The translations under genes and the position numbers were made by a program. Under the pieces are notes generated by a model that saw only the letters and a program-made list of their open reading frames with translations, did not search any database and was not told the origin of the DNA. A stretch of DNA of 64,000 nucleotides, taken from the NCBI GenBank assembly GCA_026745465.1, contig JACYXH010000091.1, positions 527,501 to 591,500 on the forward strand, written 5' to 3'. Below are positions 37,657-59,693 of this stretch, one piece after another; the stretch's first letter is position 1, and every line of letters begins with the position of its first letter. This stretch comes from Lota lota. Its lineage: Eukaryota > Chordata > Actinopteri > Gadiformes > Lotidae.

Positions 37657-38621
37657 TCACACAATGAGCTTGGTGTAACAAGGCGAGCAGTAGGCCTTTC
37701 CCTGATGCTCATTGAACCGTCCCTGGCTGAGCGGCTGCAGGCAGAAGGTGCAGATGAAATGCTCGGGGTGGAACTTGCCACCCAGGGCGGAGATGCAGCG
37801 GCCAGTGATGGGCTGGCTGCAGCCCCCGCACAGCATCCCCTGCCGGGAGTGGAAGTGCAGCGAACAGAGGGGGCGGCCTTCCAGCTCCATGAAGCTGCCT
37901 CCAGAGAAGGGCTTCAGGCAGTCCTGTACCAGAAACAGATGCTATTTACTCATTCAGCTGAGAGAGAGACTACTGTGTAAGTCTCTGTTGGAAATGGAAC
38001 TGAAGTCACTGTGAGTCGCTGACTTCAGCTTGAGATTTCCAACAGTAAGTTCAGACAGATGACATTAAGGAACAGGTAAGGGGTTAGGGCATCTTGTTCA
38101 AGGATGCCTAGAGGTAGACTGAGGTCAATGGGGAATCAAACCCAGAACCTTTCAGTTGAGAGTGAAACACTAATGACTATTCTTCCCCTGGTCATGATGT
38201 AGAGAGAGCAGCTATGAAACAGGTTCTTTTTTATAGAACCCTCAAAAGAGGATAATATATATTAAACAAATGTTCCTGTCCCAATCAATTTCTAAAGTGA
38301 TATTTTTTTAATGAAGTTAATTCATTAATTATTACTCCTGTTCATATTAATAATGTTCGACATTAATGGTGTTGTTGTAACGGAAGCAAAAGTGCAAATT
38401 CAGTTAACTGGGACCAGGTGTTAAGGGGTATTCAAGCGTGCCTGTGGACCTCATGTAAAAGATACCTACACTCTTGATTTTAATTGCAACATTTCACAGC
38501 CTGTTCATCGAGCACCAGGATTTCATTAGCCTGGTGGTGGTCAAAACTTGAAGCAAATGAAGAAGGCATGTGACTATCATTTCCCAGTCTGCCCTCCATC
38601 TTGGACCGGAGCCAGAGCAGG

Positions 38622-38679
<58 letters not shown>

Positions 38680-38708
38680 CTGTGTGCGTGTGTGTGTGTG
38701 TGTGTGTG

Positions 38709-38762
<54 letters not shown>

Positions 38763-41700
38763 TGTGTTTGTGTGTGCATGCATGCATGTGTGTGTGTGGG
38801 TGGGTGTGCATGTATGTATGTGGGTGTGCATGCGTGCGTGCATTTGTGTGCATGTGTACCAGTTTGCATATTTGATGCCGTGACCATATGTGCGTGTGCG
38901 TGTGGGTGTGGGTGTGTGTGTGGTCTGTGGTGAAGGACTCACAGCGCAGACAAAGCACTCTGGGTGCCAGGTGCCGTTGGCTGCAGTCAGGTAGTTCTCC
39001 TTCACCGGCTCACTGCAGCCGGAGCACTTGGGAGCAAAGAGGAGGTAGAAGTCTCTGCTACAGTACGGCTTCCCGTCCTTCTCCAGGAAGCCTATTGGAT
39101 AACAGGAGAAACCTCATTGGTTAGCTGGCTGATTGGATGTCTGCACCGTGGGTTAATGATCCACACCCTAGTTTGTGGAAGCTTTCCCAAGACAAAGCAG
39201 AGCTCTCAAAGCCCAGCTGGCAACACACAGTGTGTGATTGCATTACCTCCATCTGTGCCCACATGTAAATATGACTCTTGTGTCAGTAGGGTACAGTGTG
39301 AAATTATACAGTGTACACAAGTTATAAACGTAATACCTGTGGTTAACCATGTGACCAGTGTTTAATACAATTATTATTTTTATTATTCTAACCAATATAT
39401 TCCACCCAGGATAGATGGATGACAGACAGACAGATAACACAAGGTAGATATACAGGGTATCTGACCTTCCGACCCAAACAGGTTTCCACAGTGGGTACAG
39501 AAAAAGTGTTCAGGGTGCCAACTCTGGTCCAGGGCTGTCAGGATTTTCTGCCAAAATCCACAAATGATTGGGAAATCAGGCATCAGTTCATCGTGTTTCT
39601 TTTTAACTCATTAGTAAATAAATGCATCAATATAAGTAGAGGAACCTCCATGATTGGGCCCTTGCAGTATCCACAGCGAGGAGAAAAGAGCCGATGGTAG
39701 TCTTTTCCACAGTAGGGCTGTCCTTCTCTCTCGAAGAACCCTAGGGTGCCCAGCTCCTTGTTGCATGACACACACACAAAGTGCTCAGGGTGCCACACCT
39801 CGCCCAGGGCTTTGATGATCTGGAACAACGTCAGGGAAAGGACATGTAGAGATTTAGAAGGAGATATGGAACCTCCGTCTGTCGTGTTTTCATACCTCTT
39901 AGCCAGCCACACTTAAGCTCAATAAACTCAGTAAACATCTTTAAGCACCAGTCAAAAGCCTGTCTCTTCAATTTGGCTTTTAATTAGCATTTTATAAGAC
40001 ACATGAAAAGCTTTTAAGTAGCATTTTTTTTCTATGCTGCTTTCTCTGCTGATTTTATTGTACTGATCAAATACAAGTATTTACCGTAGTTGTACTGTAG
40101 CCTAACCTTGTACCTATTCTTATGCTTATGCTGCAGCGCAAAGACAGAAATTTCAGAAAGCGAGTTACCTTTCCCAGGATGCTCTTGCCACAGGAAGCGC
40201 AGTTGCCCTTAGCGACGGTACGGACGCCAATTTTCTCCAGGTCAGAGCTCAGCCCTCCCAGGAGGTCATCGATGGCGTCTACTTTCTGATTGGCCGCTGC
40301 GGCCTTCCTGTCTGAACCTGCAGGGGATTCCTTGTTCTCCTGCCTTTCACTTAACGTTTTCCCCTTCAGGGACTTCTTCTGTGAAAGCGGAGGAGGAATT
40401 GAAGGTGGAGAGGACGGAACCTAATTGATGAAAATAGAATACAAATGATCTTCTTTGTTTTATTTGTTGAGTACACAACGACCTGTTAAATGTAATTTAC
40501 ATTTTAGATCCGTCATTGAGGAATGAGGGGTTTTGGCTCCCGGAGGGTACGCCTCTAGGAACCATGTTGAACACTGTGCGAATACTGCCCTCCTCTGTCA
40601 AATCGGGGTAATGTGTCCAAAACGTTTAGCAGTTACAACCATTCAATGATATTCTCTATATTATTACTACAGAAAACAATTGTTGATAATTATTAAATGA
40701 GCTCTTAAAAAAGGGCGTGAATGTGTGTATGTGTGTTTGTGCGTGCATGCGTTTTATTCAGGAAATATTTCTGGATCAACTCAAGCTGTATTTTCTCGTA
40801 TCCCTCGACCTACGCTGAGCAGGTCCTGCATGATGGAGTCCAGCTCTTTACTGGCGGAGTAAGGGCTCGGTGCTGCCACCACAGGGGATGGCAGGAAACT
40901 GCAGAGGCAGAGGCAGAGGCAGAGAGAGCGAAAGAGAGAAATAAAGGGGATGTTAGTGTCAAAATTGTCTTCATTCATCAGCTATCTAAATATTTTTGCT
41001 AATATTACATGTGACATTTTTCCACATAAATGTTAAATCTATAATTAGTCATATTCATAATTAAGGTCCAAATCAATGTGGTTTAATTGCAATGAGCAAC
41101 AGAAGCAAACTCGAGTTTTAAAGGTTAGTCTATTGTTTAGATGCATAACCAGTTAGAGAGTTACAACCTGTACACATTTGAAGCACAGGGTTTTCTGCTT
41201 TTTGCAAGCACACTGGAAGGCTCCATGTAAACGCCAGCTTCTGCACTCTGAGATCATGACACATCATGTCACATGTAGTGAAGTTCAGGACGGTAATCAC
41301 ATGATACATATTTATACAATAAATTGCATTTTTAATCATTAAGAGACTTTGTATTGATGTCTGTACTTCTCCATAGTCGGAACTGCTTGCATTCAGCGGC
41401 ACAGTTTCAGCAAAAGCTGAATTCACAGCCAACTGCTCCAATAGCAAATCTAGAATCCGAAAAGAACGTAGAATATGAGCATCCACACATACATGCTTTT
41501 TTTTTATCCCTCAATCTCTCTCTTTCACTCTCACTGAAAATATTATTTTTAAGGTAAATGTTGTGGTGAAATGGCCCGGATGAGCAATCGCTTGCTTTTG
41601 CAGTTGAGGTTGCTTCCTCAGGAAGTGACACATGTTGATGGTAGAGAAGTGAAACGTTCCAAAATGTTGCATACAAGATTGCACTGCCTCCTTTACACAA

Positions 41701-43426: not shown

Positions 43427-49409
<5,983 letters not shown>

Positions 49410-50402: not shown

Positions 50403-53400
50403 TCATGGCCCTGGGCTGATCTGAGCTATCAAAGTCTGCAGCTCACGTAGTTTGGCCCCAAGCCACTGTGGTGGCAGTGGGGCAGTGGTGTCCTGGCTGC
50501 CCAGAGCCTGCAGGGCCTTCAGAGCACTCTCGGCTGTCTGGATGTAGCGGCTGTACTCCTCTCTGCTGGTCTCCTGTCGAGCTCTCTTAGGACAGGGCTG
50601 AGAGAGAGGACAACCTTATGTGAGGAAGCAGCGACCTCTCCATCTAACATTAGGCAGACAATTTAAATGTCAACTGTATTTAGTCATTATATTTGAGGAA
50701 TAGCCATGGCTAAATGGAATCCCTTTTTTTGCCTATTCAATAATTACTACTACCTATACCCCACTATAAAATAAAAAGTGTGTGACACTCAATGGGTATT
50801 CTTTATTCATCATTCCTTTACACAAACACTTAAACTGTCAATGGGCATGCATGCTTATTAGAGCCTTACAGGAATGATGCAAGGCAAAGCTTGCTGTGAG
50901 TGACTTTACGGTCATTAGTTTGACTTGCAGGGTGAGCAAGATTATCTGGGACAAAATAGAAATTGCTCCCATTATTAGCATCAGCAGAGCCCATTGATGT
51001 TGTGTTGCTTGTTGAACAACAACATGTTAATGCTGTACAAGGTAGCCAGGCAGGAAGCTAGCTGCCAGCCATAAATGTGCTCAGTAACTTAAATGTAAAG
51101 GAGGATACGTCCCCTGGATAACAAATACCATTCACCTCTGAGTCAGCAGGGGCACTCGCGGTTGACCCACTCGATGCACCATCTATTTCCGTCTCCAGCC
51201 TCCTATTGCTTTGCTCAATCACAGTTGACTCCATCTTGAGCCTGTCCAGCCGTCTCTCCCCCGCTTCCTGGGCATTAACAGTCTGACAAAAGAACAGAAG
51301 TAAGAGTCTCCCAGGCAATGCCCTTCTATTGTTCCTCCTATTAACATTGGAAGTCACTCACCTTGCTAAGATAATTCACCACTTTGGCCTTGGTCTCTTC
51401 AACAGACAAGCTGTGGGAGATCACCTCCTCATGATTTGTGATCTAAAAAAAGACAAGCACACATGCTTACACATTGTCAACAAACATGTACACTTTATTA
51501 GTATTTATTTATCTTATCACATAAGCCGATTTAGTTTCCCTCACCTCTGCAAAGTGAGCAAAGGCCTCCAGGGCATGCTGGTGTAACAACCAGGACCTCT
51601 CAGCCAGCAGGGATCCGAAAAGGCTGCTCAGCCGGGGCAGAATCTGGCTCTGTGGGCCAAATAACCACAGGGAGGAGGTTAACATGAGAAATGTCTTTGT
51701 CAAGTGACGCATGCATACTTAAAGGGTATGTAAACCCATAAAATACTTTAAGCCGCTTGAAAATGATTCCGATTGGGTCTCACAAAGTGTCGTGTGAACA
51801 TTTCTGTGTTTTCACAAAAATGTATAGTTAGTAAACAGGGAAAAGTTGCTGCTTTCCAGCAAACAAAAACACTTTTCCAGAGTGATGGTTTTATATTGGC
51901 TAAACTCTGCTCAAGTCAGTGGGACATGGGTTGTGGGGATAACGCCTGTCACACATGTCCTGTGAAACCTAATGTCTGTTTTTTCTAAAACTTTATGACA
52001 GTGATGACTGCTTAGATCGCATTTGTTTAAACTCGTAAACAGGGTTTACTTACCCTTTAAAACACCAACAGTTTAAAATAAAAATATCCTTGAACCAAAG
52101 GCAATCATAATTCCCTTAAACACCATTACAGTTCATGGCAGTACCTATTAAGCACTTATCTGATCACTATCAGTGATCAGATAAAATCGTTTTGCAATTG
52201 ATTTCACACCAGCATGACAATCAAGTGTAGGACTACGAGAAAAGGGCAAATGGTTTCAGTCCACTGTACCTGGCTGTCATGGGAGACAAACACGTTGCCG
52301 AGGGAGGCCAGGAACTCTAGGGCAGCCAGCGCCACCTGGTCCGGACACTTCTGAGAGACCAGCGATGCCACACACTGCAGAGCCTAAGATACACGGGGGT
52401 GTCAACACGCAAGGATTCACACCAGGATGTCTCCTATTGTTACATTTTAAGACTGCTCAAATTTGTCTGTTCACTATTTAGTAATTTAGCAGATGATGAA
52501 GAGAAAGACCTGATGGATGGCGTTGTGATCGATGGTCTTCACCAGGCTGGCTGATATCAACAGCAGCCATCGCAGGGTGCACTGGAGTACAGGATGGGTC
52601 TGGACCTTATGTAAAGCAGACAGCCATCCATGTGTCTTATGGGTGTGTGCATGAACACCATACAACCATACAGAAGTACAAAACAAGTGGCATGACGTGT
52701 GCAAGCATCTTACCTGTGCAGGACACATGCGGGACCACAGCTGTGTGACTATCCTCCCCGCTGCTGCCAACACACTCTCTCCCTCCGAGGATGGCTCCCC
52801 GCGGACCACCACTCTGAGGGCCCTCAGAGCGGTGTTCTGGGAAGGGACACGCTGTTAACATGGAGCTCCTGCTTATTAAAGTTAATCTGAAGTCTCATTA
52901 CCGTAAGGAGGATCTTCTAGGGACTTGGACAAGAAAACACTCCATTATCTATTCCCTCATGTTTTTGTGACAGTGTGTGGAATCGGACCCCTTATAACCA
53001 CCGCCTCCTCCCCCCTTATTATTATTATTATAATAATAATGGTCATCGACTATCCTCACCACTTTCACCACTTGCCCCAGCCGGTACCCTCCATCCCGCC
53101 AGTGATCCAGGGCTTGCTGGGTCAGGGCGGTGATGTCCATCCGGAGCCTCTGGCAGGCGTCAGGGGACAGGGCTCTGAGGAGGACATGGTGCCACACGGG
53201 GAGGTTTTCCACCCGGGACGGCGGGAAGCGCTCCACCAGCTCCATCTGTATGACGTAACGGAACAAGCAGTAAGCACGCTGCCGATCAGACCCATGGCGG
53301 GGGGACGGGGCCGCCATATGTCACCCGGTGTAAGTCTTCCCTGGGGCGGAGGGGAGTTGTAAACAGCACGCGCCATAGGGTGGGAATCAGGCGTGGCGAT

Positions 53401-54554
53401 GGTAGAGACTCTTAGGAAAGTAAATGTCAGAGGGAATGGATTTTCACTGTGAGATCTGTCTTTTATTGTAATAAACAGGATGGTTTTGCTTAAATTGTAT
53501 CTTCATTGTGACTTAGAATGTGACTCTAGCCTATTTATGAACAGATCATTGTTTGTGATGTGATCATGTATACAAAGAAAAAGAAAATCTCGAACTATGA
53601 TGTTGAAAACTGAAGCAGGTAACAGATTCCTGTGGACTGTACAGTGATCAAGGCATGTTTCCCATGGATGTTTAAAGCAAATGTTTGTGTAAAGCATATT
53701 TACATGTTTCTGTTTCCAAGCCGTACCATCTTTTATTAAGCCTTTTTATGACATGTAAAGTGTGTTGGTAACTAGTACTGTCTGGTTCGAGTCTTTGTAT
53801 TGTTTTACCTCTACTACCTTTTGCTAATGTATTTATTATCACTCCTATGTGTGTTCTTCCTACACAGATCACCCTTGACTTGTTTGACGTATTTCACTGT
53901 ACAGAATGATCCTGTTATACCGCACAATAATAATGAACCACTTTGACTTTTTAACCTGGTCGCAGTTGGATCGGGGCGGTAGAGGATGTGAAAGGTTTGT
54001 ACTGGAGTGTTTTTGTTCTGACCTGGTGGTGGGGGGTCATGAGGAAGACCATGCGTCTGAGCAGCTGGCCCAGGTGGGACGACTGGTACACCCAGCTGGC
54101 ACACACCTTCACCTGGGGGAGGGCAGCAGAGGTGAGGGGCCAAGTCAGCGTGTTGGCCCAGCAGTAGAGGAAAACCGGCCATAAAAAGGAGAGGAGATGG
54201 GAGAGGTGTGGGAGGTGTAAATTTGTGAGTTTCAGGCTTATTGTGCTGCACAATGGGCCCCGGTTAAGGGAGAGGTGTCGCCGTACCCCAGGCATAGAGA
54301 CACCAATTGTCGCCTCTGCTGGAGCGCCACACTGAACAAAAGCCCACAGCCTGTTTTTGTTGAGCAGAGGGCAGTGTTTAAAGAGGTTTGGAGGTTCTTG
54401 AGTTGTTCCAAGGGGATAGCAAGACAACTACAATTGAGATACTAGATATGAATACAAGACAGGTAGAAGTGGAATACACATGTCCTAATTCATTTGTATA
54501 TAATGTATACGTCAGCTTAAAGCAATAGATAGTTCTCTATGCCAAATCCCATCC

Positions 54555-54595
<41 letters not shown>

Positions 54596-57500
54596 AAAAA
54601 GGTACACTTTCTGATCAACATGCTGTGTTATAATGTCCACTGTAGGCCTCTACCCACCAGGTGAGCTATGAGCAGGGCGTGTTGCAGACAGAGTTCTGCA
54701 GTTCCGTACCTGAAGACAGAGAGAACTCCATTAGCAGTGGAATAATCCCACTAGTGGAACCTCAAATTGTTTCTTCGCTTTTTTTCTAGTATTTGTACTT
54801 TGTTTAGATACATTCACATTTTCAAAATAACCATTAATAGTCGTCTATTAAAAAGCCCTAAGTGCGAATCGTCCGTAGTTTGCCAGGTAGAAAACCCGTC
54901 GGTTCTCACCGTGCTGTGAAACACCAGACGTCTGCAGCCAGCAGGGCTGTCTGCCAATCAGCCTGCAAGACGGCTTCCATTAAACAATGCTCCTGGGGAG
55001 GACAGGAGAGGAAAAACACACCAATGGAAAGTGAAAGAAAGAGGAAAAACACATCAATGGAAAGTGAAAGAAAGTCCACCAGATTTTAACTAAAAGGCAC
55101 TACCGTTATGAATAGTAGGAAATCCTGTTGGAAACTCCCACAAAATGTTATAAAAACAGTGAAATCCACAAAGCCATTTTACATTCTAGCTATGTCATAG
55201 CACATGTTTACACCAAACTTTATCCAGCAATCTTAAATAAAGCAGCCCAGCCCTTATTTATTCCCTAAGCATCATGGGAGTGAGGGGGTTTCCACACCAG
55301 CACTGGGAGGTAGGATGGTGGGAGTGAGGCGACACTGGCACACAGATGCACACACACGTGGTGATGCAGGCTGACTCTTCCCTGGGCCTGACCCTTCATC
55401 ATCACCCCCGGCAACAGCACGGGTTCCAGCCGCTCGGTGCAGCACACCCGGAAGCTGTTCATGATGGCCTGATAGATGGTGAACCTGGGGAGACAGTGAA
55501 CAGAACGTGCTTTGTGTCATCATAAAGCGCCACAGGGAATGTATTGATCAAGATGGTGTCTAACCCAAAGTTATAATAAATGGTGTGAGACACCACAGCA
55601 TGCAAAGTAACTGAACAGTGCTACAAACGACATTCAACATTTTTTATTAAACTTTAAAAGTTAGCTTTCTGATAAAGAAAAAAAAAAGCCTGTTTCAATA
55701 TGCAAAGCGGTTGATATTCCCTTGACGAGGCCGACGATGTGCGTCTTCATTACATATTGAAAGTGAGACTTTGATCGCAGGCCAGCTTGGACCTTGGGCA
55801 GGACCTGGCTACCTGGGGGTCTCCTCAGGGAAGAAGCTGCCCTGGTGCCAGAGCTGCAGGGTCTCCTCTGGCTGGGAGGCCAGGTGACCCAGTACGCTCA
55901 CCAGCAGCAGACACTGAGGGAGCTGCCGTTCCGCACTCAGCTCTGTGCAAAAACATTCAACACCAAAGGTTCAACAAAAAGCCATTGCAGTTTCATAATC
56001 AAGATCTCATTGCAGTAGAATTGCAAAAGCACACTGTATGTATTAGCACAAACTAGCTTTTTTTTTGGCACGCAAATGCTTTTGAACAATATAGAGGTAA
56101 CTGCAGAATGATAGTTTGTAACTGCACTTTAGGTTCCAAACACATTTTCAAACAAACCCCACCATAGACCAACATATCAGCGATATTAAGTGCAAGCTAA
56201 CTGCTATCTCACTGCATCCCTTTCATAACAAGTGGAAAAGGAAACCACTTGCCGTCAGCAAAAAGACTGATGGCAAAAACAACACCGGAGGGGACACGAG
56301 GACACAGAGCGTTCAAACTCACGCTGGTCCTTCCCGAGAATGACCTCCGCGAAGGGCCGCAGGGGCAACAGCTGGATCAGTAGGGCCTCCATGGGTAGCA
56401 GCGCCGCCGCACTTAGCTCCTCAGACAGCGGTGGAGGCAAGCTTGGGGCACACAGGCTGGGAGGGAACATACTGAGGGGAAGAACACAGCCTGGAGCTCA
56501 GAGGTTGTCTGTATGGTGTCCTGTATATACAACCCAAGTCCCCCTTCCTTAAAGTGTGATCGAGTTATATTAGATCTCTTCTAATATGTAATATATACTA
56601 ATATTTTGTTCAATGTATTCACCTACCTGGTAATATGGAAGTAGAGTTGATGAAAGCGGCTGCAATACTTGGACAGGAAAGAGCTGAATTCCTGTTAGAG
56701 GTAAGAGTTACAAGTTGTGACTTGTAACGCCATCATTGTTTTTCAATACAAAACATGCAAACATTTTAAATTTAGAGAATATCCGTAAGGCTTTGCCAAA
56801 GGCCAAACATCTGTCACCTTTATGTAATGGACTAAAGTGTTGGCAAAGAATCTGCACATCTTCATGTTTTTCTGAAACAGCTTGTATTCCGCACATTGGG
56901 TCATCTCCTGAGATTACATAAAAAAACAATGGTGTCAGTGTGTGTCCTTCACTTCACCTGACGCCTGAACTCAGGTTCAACACCTCTCACCACAATCATT
57001 GTACTCCAGAAAATCAAATGTGCATAGCAAGCACAGAGCAAAGGGTCTAGCAAGGGACGCAATAAATACTCTGACATAAAAAGATGTCACATTGTATGGT
57101 GCAAGGTGTTGAAGTTGAAGAAATAGTGTACAATGTTAATAACACTGCAGTTATTCACATTATAGACATTTTGCTGAACACCATACACTTCTTGGCATCA
57201 AAACATGCTAATTGAAGCAGGTATGGCGTCCCAAATAACAGGGACACAAGCAATGTTCCTGTGGGCATGACAAAAGTGGAACAGAAGCCAGCGTCCAGTC
57301 CTCTCTACCTGCGGTCCGGTGTGTCTGATCTGGTCACCCAGCTCCAAACAGGTACGGAAGGATGCCAGCAGGTTGTCACACAGACAGCTGCTGATGTCCC
57401 CGTGGCGAAGATGCTCTTCCACGTACGATTGGTGCTTCACGCTCTGTCTGACCACAGGGATGTCACTCGTTTCATTACAGCCATTGCTCATCATACGCAC

Positions 57501-59290
57501 ATGTATAACTGAAGCGAGGGGTGATGAGAACGCGATGGTGCTTACTTGACTATGAATTTCCACGTGTTGGCGTGCAGCGCCATGTCCAGGTCTGAGATCA
57601 CATAGCAGAGATCCAGCAGGCTGTGAATGACTGGAATTAAAAAGCAATGGTAAATATCTTCGGAGAAGTAACCTAACACTCACACTCACACACACACACA
57701 CCTGTGACAATGTCAGTAACGTCCTCCTCCGTAGCCTGAGTGTCCAGAGAGATGCGATCCAGCAGCTCCATGAGGCCCTTTTGGAGGGAGTAGGCCTCCT
57801 TGAAGAGTACCTGTAGCAGGTCTGCCACCAGGGACAGGCGGCCACAGTACACCTCCTCACTCTCCTAGGAACCAATCAATCAATGGTGTAAATCACTCAG
57901 TCTTCATTCATATTATCTGTCATTTAGAAACAGCTTGAATGCAGCCAACAAGCGCTGGAGGCTAAATGATGATTGACCAGATTATAAATAGATGGAATGG
58001 ATTAATGATGCAGTACAACATTCAATTATGCATAAAATATGTGCTCATTTAACCAGCATCAATCTCAGTGATGCAATATATGAATTGAGGTTGACGTATA
58101 TATCTTGTTTATACTACCTTACAGTGTTGGAAGGTGTGCTTCAGTACTTTGAGGATACACGATGGTAGAGAGCGGATGGCGTCCAGGACTGGTGCTTCCT
58201 CAAACAAGCAGACATGACGAACACAGGCAGACATCGCTTCGATGATCTGCACCGTTGCCTTGCAATGAAAAGAGAAATGTCTTTAATATATGTATTGATA
58301 TTGGCCCATTTGTTTTTTGATCAATAGTGAAACTTATACTGCTATAGGGCCCTCATTTGGTTCTTCCATACCATACCACCACATAAGATACAAGGGTGTA
58401 GTTAATTACTAATTATTATTATTAATGAAGCACCTGCAGGATGTTTCTCAGTAGGGTACGCAACTCTGTGTTTTGACTGGACAGTCCTCCAACTTGGTTT
58501 GAGATCTCCTTCATCAAATTGTCAAACATGGTGACAGCCTGCAAACAAAGACAACATGTGTGGGATAAAGTAATTGCAAATGTAAATAAACAATCCCCCT
58601 GCAATCAGAGTAAAACTTTAGTCAAGTGGTTAGACATTTTTCCAACTGTGGACACACACCACTGATGTAATCAGATGATATTCACCTTAGGCAAGACTTT
58701 GGAGAAGCACTCCTCCACTTCATTCAAACCAATGTGAGGGAGGAACATTTCTGTGATGATTTTCAGGATACCTGAATGGAAAGACATTGCTATTAATCCT
58801 CCGAGATGTAGGTAAATACAATCACTCTGCTGAAGATGAACAAGCGGCTTACGAATAAAATGAATGCACTTACGAATATGCTCATCCCAGCTCTCAGACT
58901 TGTCATGCAGAGAGTACAAATGGTCAAGGAAGACCTAAATGGTTAACATCTTTTTGACATGTTAGTATTGATTCACAACTCGTGTAGTGTTACATTAGAA
59001 GCATTATTGAGACTTGCAGAACTATTGCATTGGGGAAAGTACACGTTCAGGGTTTCCAGCTCCACAAAGGAAAAGTTGAAATTAGATTCAGTCTATGCTT
59101 GGGTTCAACTGCGATAATGGTCATCTTTTGGACCACACAATTCAAATCCGATCTCAACAGTCAAACCAGTTGTCACAGCGCACTAAACATGGGAGGATAT
59201 GGTAAGTTTAGGCAGGACGGATCTGAGCTCTTTGCGACATGTTTCCTGACTCCAGTGTACCACCTCTTCCAGAAGAGTAGTCTGCGACAT
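50403..59290 (-). CDS. firrm: FIGNL1-interacting regulator of recombination and mitosis (C1orf112 homologue), complete
   Basis: FIRRM partners the AAA-ATPase FIGNL1 to remove RAD51 from DNA and also acts in mitosis. Exons in coding order: 59201-59290, 58874-58913, 58686-58771, 58434-58538, 58118-58258, 57702-57864, 57546-57630, 57309-57447, 56818-56907, 56627-56691, 56323-56471, 55813-55942, 55298-55484, 54910-54992, 54658-54709, 54023-54112, 53060-53245, 52714-52836, 52510-52605, 52270-52383, 51545-51649, 51362-51442, 51136-51282, 50403-50597; all phases agree, 913 aa (human 853). Diagnostic pieces shared with the human protein as remembered: LKIITEMFLPHI, GGLSSQNTELRTLLRNILQ, LFKEAYSLQKGLMELLD, HANTWKFIV, KRARQE near the C-terminus. 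It is an all-helical, repeat-like protein with no catalytic motif seen. All introns but the first are GT-AG and mostly short. It ends tail to tail with scyl3. Confidence 0.93.
50598..51135 (-). other. Last firrm intron
   Basis: A 538-bp intron, unique A/T-rich sequence; nothing else recognised. Confidence 0.7.
52156..52184. repeat. Perfect 13-bp inverted repeat in a firrm intron
   Basis: TTATCTGATCACT (52156-52168) is inverted at 52172-52184 with a 3-base loop. Confidence 0.7.
53246..54022 (-). other. firrm intron with no other feature
   Basis: A 777-bp intron between the exons ending TPHHQ and starting MELVERF; A/T-rich and unique, nothing recognised. Confidence 0.6.
54559..54592. repeat. 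(GA)n microsatellite in a firrm intron
   Basis: About 16 GA units. Confidence 0.9.
58914..59200 (-). other. U12-type AT-AC intron (firrm intron 1)
   Basis: On the minus strand the intron opens ATATCCTCCC at 59200, matching the U12 donor consensus ATATCCTT at its first seven bases. TTCCTTGAC at 58931-58923 matches the U12 branch consensus TTCCTTRAC, and the intron ends GTAC with the last C 10 nt after the branch A. Splicing joins LPKLT to SLHDKSESW in phase 0. The only GT alternative nearby (GTTTAG at 59188) is a poor donor and would insert 11 extra residues. Confidence 0.85.
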
Positions 59291-59421
59291 GTTGGGAGGC
59301 AGGGCTGGTCAGATGAGCTGCACAAACAATGAACATTAACGGAATAAATGCTGAATATGACAAGATTGTAATAGTTTGCTATATGGTGTAAATCGTTATT
59401 TCGCTAATACGTTTTGGCATA

Positions 59422-59447
59422 GACTAACGTTAATGATAACGTTAGTC
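59422..59447. repeat. Perfect 11-bp inverted repeat upstream of firrm
   Basis: GACTAACGTTA (59422-59432) is inverted at 59437-59447 with a 4-base loop, in the probable 5' UTR or promoter of firrm. Confidence 0.65.
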
Positions 59448-59693
59448 ATCGAAACCGCGTCAGATTATCCAACAAAAAATACTTACCATTTAACTATTAC
59501 TTTCCATAAAAGCCAAATATCCTGTATTCCGTAGTTTAAATTATTCGCTAACTCTGTTTTGTAATTACCATTGTATATGGTGTTTATATTACATAAAAGA
59601 ATGTCAACATTTAAACAAAAGTCAAATTGTGGTGCATAGTTTATGTACAACGTTAACTAGTCGCATATTCCAGTGGTCGTAACGCGCGCTGTT

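Follow-up and report, generated by a model that had tools for sequence, protein, structure and literature searches.

The 5′ splice site consensus of U12-type introns is ATATCCTTT and their branch site consensus is TTCCTTRAC, and in vertebrates the genes of voltage-gated sodium channels carry a U12-type intron of the AT-AC form after exon 2. In the part of PMC3584512 drawn on here, the class is defined by its 5′ splice site and branch site, its optimum distance from branch to 3′ splice site is given as 11-13 nt, and its members are described as being without a distinct polypyrimidine tract ahead of the 3′ splice site. Among single genes, the closest described system is human C1orf112, one of the 18 human twintron genes in Table 1 of Janice et al. 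2013 (PMC3564746), where the U12 variant has 718 aa and the U2 variants have 853 aa (U2-a) and 606 aa. As far as the portion of that paper drawn on goes, the ancestral intron is U12-type in all eighteen twintron genes and the set is highly conserved in vertebrates, and an excerpt of a 2021 review (PMC8329584) places C1orf112 among the cases in which the external intron is U12-type and the internal one U2-type. A U12-type intron in C1orf112, published in 2013, is already known and is not new in kind; our literature search found no paper linking the name FIRRM with the minor spliceosome, and among the matches listed for FIRRM and intron, none was on splicing by title. Further afield, AT-AC introns with ATATCCTTTC and TTCCTTAAC are entered for Trichinella spiralis in Table 1 of PMC2846911; these signals are of the same class as those described below, although the genes differ and the animal is distant.

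The C1orf112 orthologue firrm lies complete on the minus strand of the 64-kb stretch of Lota lota DNA analysed here (the window). The spliced model, with the last stop base read from the sequence, gives a coding region at 50403..59290 with 24 coding exons that join into a single open frame of 913 aa. In a Pfam search, residues 225-780 matched PF14868 (DUF4487) with an E value of 3.5e-215 and 716.5 bits, covering the whole profile (1-583 of 583), and we take PF14868 to be the C1orf112/FIRRM family. A paralogue would have offered independent evidence, but a search of the 575-Mb genome with residues 1-344 of the 913-aa protein found none; 9/9 matches fell at the gene's own locus, so firrm looks single-copy. 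The domain match starts at residue 225, and the junction of the first coding intron is outside its reach. Sequence searches of the PDB returned no matching chain, either for residues 1-72 (E threshold 0.1) or for the full-length 913-aa protein (E threshold 0.001).

The preliminary description, made from the letters alone, had proposed that the first coding intron of this gene is a U12-type AT-AC intron at 58914..59200, and this proposal was supported by sequence, spliced model, motif scoring and chance simulation. The intron is 287 nt long on the minus strand, in phase 0, and lies between coding exon 1 (59201..59290, minus strand; MSQTTLLEEVVHWSQETCRKELRSVLPKLT, from the spliced model and the sequence) and coding exon 2 (58874..58913, minus strand; SLHDKSESWDEHI plus one base in the spliced model, followed by a GT-AG intron). 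At the exon 1 boundary (...CTTACC/ATATCCTCC) the intron starts at 59200, and at the exon 2 boundary (...TTTGTAC/TCTCTGCATGAC) it ends at 58914. The AT donor ATATCCTCC (59192..59200, minus strand) matches the consensus in 7/9 positions, the first seven exactly, with mismatches at +8 and +9 where it has C and C for consensus T, and scores 6.9 of a possible 16.8 on a U12-type consensus scale of our own setting. The branch site TTCCTTGAC (58923..58931, minus strand, branch A at 58924) matches in 9/9 positions and scores 15.8 on this U12-type scale. Judged by these motifs, the candidate donor is moderately good and the branch site is perfect. The terminal AC (58914..58915, minus strand) is the sole AC or AG 8-16 nt after the branch A and stands 10 nt past it, as had been claimed; counted to the first exon base the distance is 11 nt, so the spacing equals or falls slightly short of the lower end of the 11-13 nt optimum that the excerpted text of PMC3584512 gives for U12-type introns. 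No polypyrimidine tract was found between the branch A and exon 2 (CCATTTGTAC), as expected of the class. Splicing the intron out gives LPKLT-SLHDKSESW within the 913-aa frame, the junction that the preliminary description had named. Its human counterpart is presumably the region LPRLL-SMYQRSDSW.

These signals set the intron apart within its own gene, the AT-AC U12 form being present in 1/23 firrm coding introns. The 22 other coding introns are all GT-AG, and scored as U12-type none of their donors rises above 0 (best -2.9). When about the last 40 bases of each were searched for branch-like sequences, the best score was 7.5, in intron 16. In the window, a 9/9 match to TTCCTTRAC with an AC at 8-16 nt has a single occurrence on the minus strand, in intron 1, and none on the plus strand, where a first-order Markov control predicts 0.325 for each strand. 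The U12-type donor motif taken alone is weak evidence: donors reaching the score of intron 1 number 87 on the plus and 94 on the minus strand of the window, with 57 per strand in the Markov control, and genome-wide counts of ATATCCTCC as a bare word (2094 + 2175, against 1573 + 1504 for the reversed word) are uninformative. In simulations, a donor with at most two mismatches fell within 31 positions with a frequency of 0.027, and a 9/9 branch site with AC within 31 positions with a frequency of 0.00018 (36/200,000 runs). The joint chance, divided by three for frame, is about 1.6e-6, or about 1e-7 with ATATCCT exact, both figures assuming independence. The RNA from exon 1 to exon 2 showed no extra fold stability compared with shuffles (z 1.03; 86/100 shuffles fold at least as well), no repeats of at least 12 were found in 58874-59290, and no Rfam family reached its gathering score anywhere in the window.

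The sodium channel genes of the same genome were used as a positive control. Eight exon-2 loci were taken as those rows (of 33) that start at or before query residue 8, and we take the exon at these loci to be exon 2, the one preceding the AT-AC intron. A complement of eight loci sharing this exon would be in line with a teleost genome. The donor ATATCCTT follows exon 2 in 8/8 loci, and in 5/8 a branch site with 8 or 9 matches and an AC precede an exon-3-like start, the AC standing 9-16 nt past the branch A; at the other three (L025, L027 and L031) the next exon is about 1.7 to 3 kb off, beyond the 1.5 kb examined. The sodium channel introns thus share the donor core with firrm in all eight loci and have a like branch site and AC end in five, whereas +8 of the donor is T in 8/8 sodium channel loci and C in firrm. 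At one of these loci (L031, on G000:C410), the reverse complement has two ATATCCTT donors 40 bases apart, at 1635 and 1675, each after CATCCATTC, a pair that resembles a tandem duplication of a U12-type donor.

The genome also encodes the RNAs that such an intron would use. With loci called by Rfam cut-offs, U11 (114 bits), U12 (128 bits), U4atac (two loci, 97 and 78 bits) and U6atac (130 bits) all score above their cut-offs, and the branch-pairing stretch of U12, GATGAGTAAGGAAAATAACG, and the 5′ stretch of U6atac are intact. The weaker of the two U4atac-like loci (L010 and L011) could be either an additional gene or a pseudogene. For pairing with U12, the firrm branch site has a predicted energy of -7.1 kcal/mol and TTCCTTAAC one of -7.4; a reversed sequence gave -5.5 kcal/mol and is a poor control, as it itself contains TTCCTT. 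The donor is predicted to pair with U11 at -3.1 kcal/mol, more weakly than the consensus (-4.5), and with U6atac at -6.1 kcal/mol, about equal to the consensus (-5.7) in a different register.

The preliminary description had pointed to the human gene as a check, and C1orf112 is indeed listed in print as having a U12-type intron, intron position aside (Table 1 of PMC3564746 and the excerpt of PMC8329584). The human gene and the fish gene are the same by family, and a U12-type intron is reported for the one in the portion of PMC3564746 drawn on and present as a candidate in the other. Since the human gene has a reported U12-type intron and intron 1 is the sole candidate in the fish, it is simplest to regard the two as one and the same, and we consider it probable that firrm intron 1 is the fish orthologue of the intron reported in human C1orf112. 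The lengths of the human variants in Table 1 of PMC3564746 (718 versus 853 aa) are not predicted by the position of the fish intron alone, so the human twintron could sit elsewhere in the gene. In the human gene, as excerpted from the review, a U2-type intron is nested inside the U12-type one, whereas nested U2-type sites in the fish score very poorly and leave that arrangement unsupported.

Upstream of coding exon 1, a donor at 59486 (ATG/GTAAGT, score 8.6) and an acceptor with first exon base 59317 (TTTGTGCAG/CTC, score 3.3) delimit a probable 5′-UTR intron at 59318..59486 on the minus strand; another acceptor, with first exon base 59350, scores 6.3. Given this donor and acceptor, a non-coding first exon upstream of coding exon 1 is likely, which would probably make the AT-AC intron the second one in the transcript. 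The name intron 1 used in the preliminary description is right for the coding introns but would probably be one too low for the transcript. Use of the acceptor at 59317 would place a tiny upstream reading frame (ATG CTC ATC TGA) across the UTR junction.

Splicing of the same region by the major spliceosome was assessed by scoring GT and AG sites with matrices from firrm's own 22 GT-AG introns, scanning GT from the ATG to 58914 and AG from 59150 to 58880, with frames tested through exon 4. None of the scanned sites formed a GT-AG pair giving the LPKLT-SLHDKSESW junction, so the earlier statement that no reasonable GT donor fits stood for the conserved junction. It did not stand for exon 1 as a whole, inside which a fair donor at 59263 (GAG/GTGGTA) keeps the frame when paired with a weak acceptor at 58898 (GACAAG/TCT). 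With the acceptor at 59124 this donor forms the highest summed GT-AG pair, which hits a stop and was rejected. A joining of 59264 to 58898, removing a rival intron at 58899..59263 (minus strand), is the best pair that stays open, in frame through exon 4, as far as tested; its donor (6.6) lies inside the gene's own range and its acceptor (2.5) near the low end, with only 1/22 lower. The protein would be without 26 residues (VVHWSQETCRKELRSVLPKLTSLHDK) around the junction. This product would, however, lose a stretch that presumably resembles the human N-terminus, and the near-complete set of U12 signals would become a coincidence of about 1.6e-6; we regard its formation by the major spliceosome as very unlikely, be it the principal product or an alternative in the manner of a twintron.

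A twintron in which a U12-type intron encloses a U2-type one, as described for human C1orf112, would have the order of nesting given in the excerpted part of PMC8329584, and the GT-AG intron that it calls for, at 58935..59188 (minus strand), is in frame and would insert 11 residues. The preliminary description had itself raised this joining of 59189 to 58934 as a competing outcome. Scored by sequence, both of its sites (donor -4.0, acceptor -7.5) nevertheless fall below every leave-one-out value of the 22 GT-AG introns (minima: donor -0.4, acceptor 2.2), and use of the nested intron appears extremely improbable. We give almost no credence to the usual first coding exon being another one upstream, joined by GT-AG splicing to exon 2 or 3. 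A good donor is present for it at 59486, but an upstream exon joined to the acceptor at 59317 runs into exon 1, where an in-frame TGA beginning 21 nt upstream of the firrm ATG, as read from the sequence, stands ahead of the coding frame. In addition, exon 2 starts without an AG, so a GT-AG route would have to extend it, cut into it or skip it.

We therefore favour, with high confidence, the reading that firrm has a true U12-type intron of the AT-AC form between its first two coding exons and that functional firrm mRNA would depend on the minor spliceosome. The predicted intron belongs to a known class, of which it is an ordinary and well-formed example. In the sequence of events that we propose, the intron 1 donor would base-pair with U11 and the branch site TTCCTTGAC with U12, U6atac would then displace U11 at the donor, and the AC ten bases beyond the branch A would serve as the 3′ splice site, so that LPKLT would be joined to SLHDKSESW in phase 0. 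If splicing failed, intron 1 would be retained; translation of the retained form runs into a stop after 35 residues, and such a transcript may be subject to decay. Because of this stop, making functional firrm mRNA should require the minor spliceosome, in keeping with the dependence suggested by the preliminary description, and normal firrm protein should need this machinery, or else an N-terminally altered isoform would be made. A regulatory extension of this reading, in which firrm dosage is throttled by the minor spliceosome, appears unlikely to us: the weak donor (C at +8 and +9) would slow intron 1, the route from 59264 to 58898 would yield an N-terminally shortened protein, and removal of RAD51 from DNA would thereby be tuned.

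The gain from placing this intron is a correct reading of the N-terminus, which a gene finder limited to GT-AG introns would likely miss or truncate, and a recombination regulator is thereby putatively linked to the minor spliceosome. The part of PMC3584512 drawn on here counts DNA replication and repair among the functions in which U12-type introns are enriched, and a link for firrm is thus to be expected and no surprise.

Two further features were seen in the window. A long open stretch on the plus strand (48194-49132) converges on the 3′ end of firrm and resembles what we take to be the C-terminal part of SCYL3, presumably the neighbour of C1orf112 in human. On the minus strand, at 38577-39113, a cysteine-rich exon that is LIM domain-like by eye runs into a long CA-type repeat.
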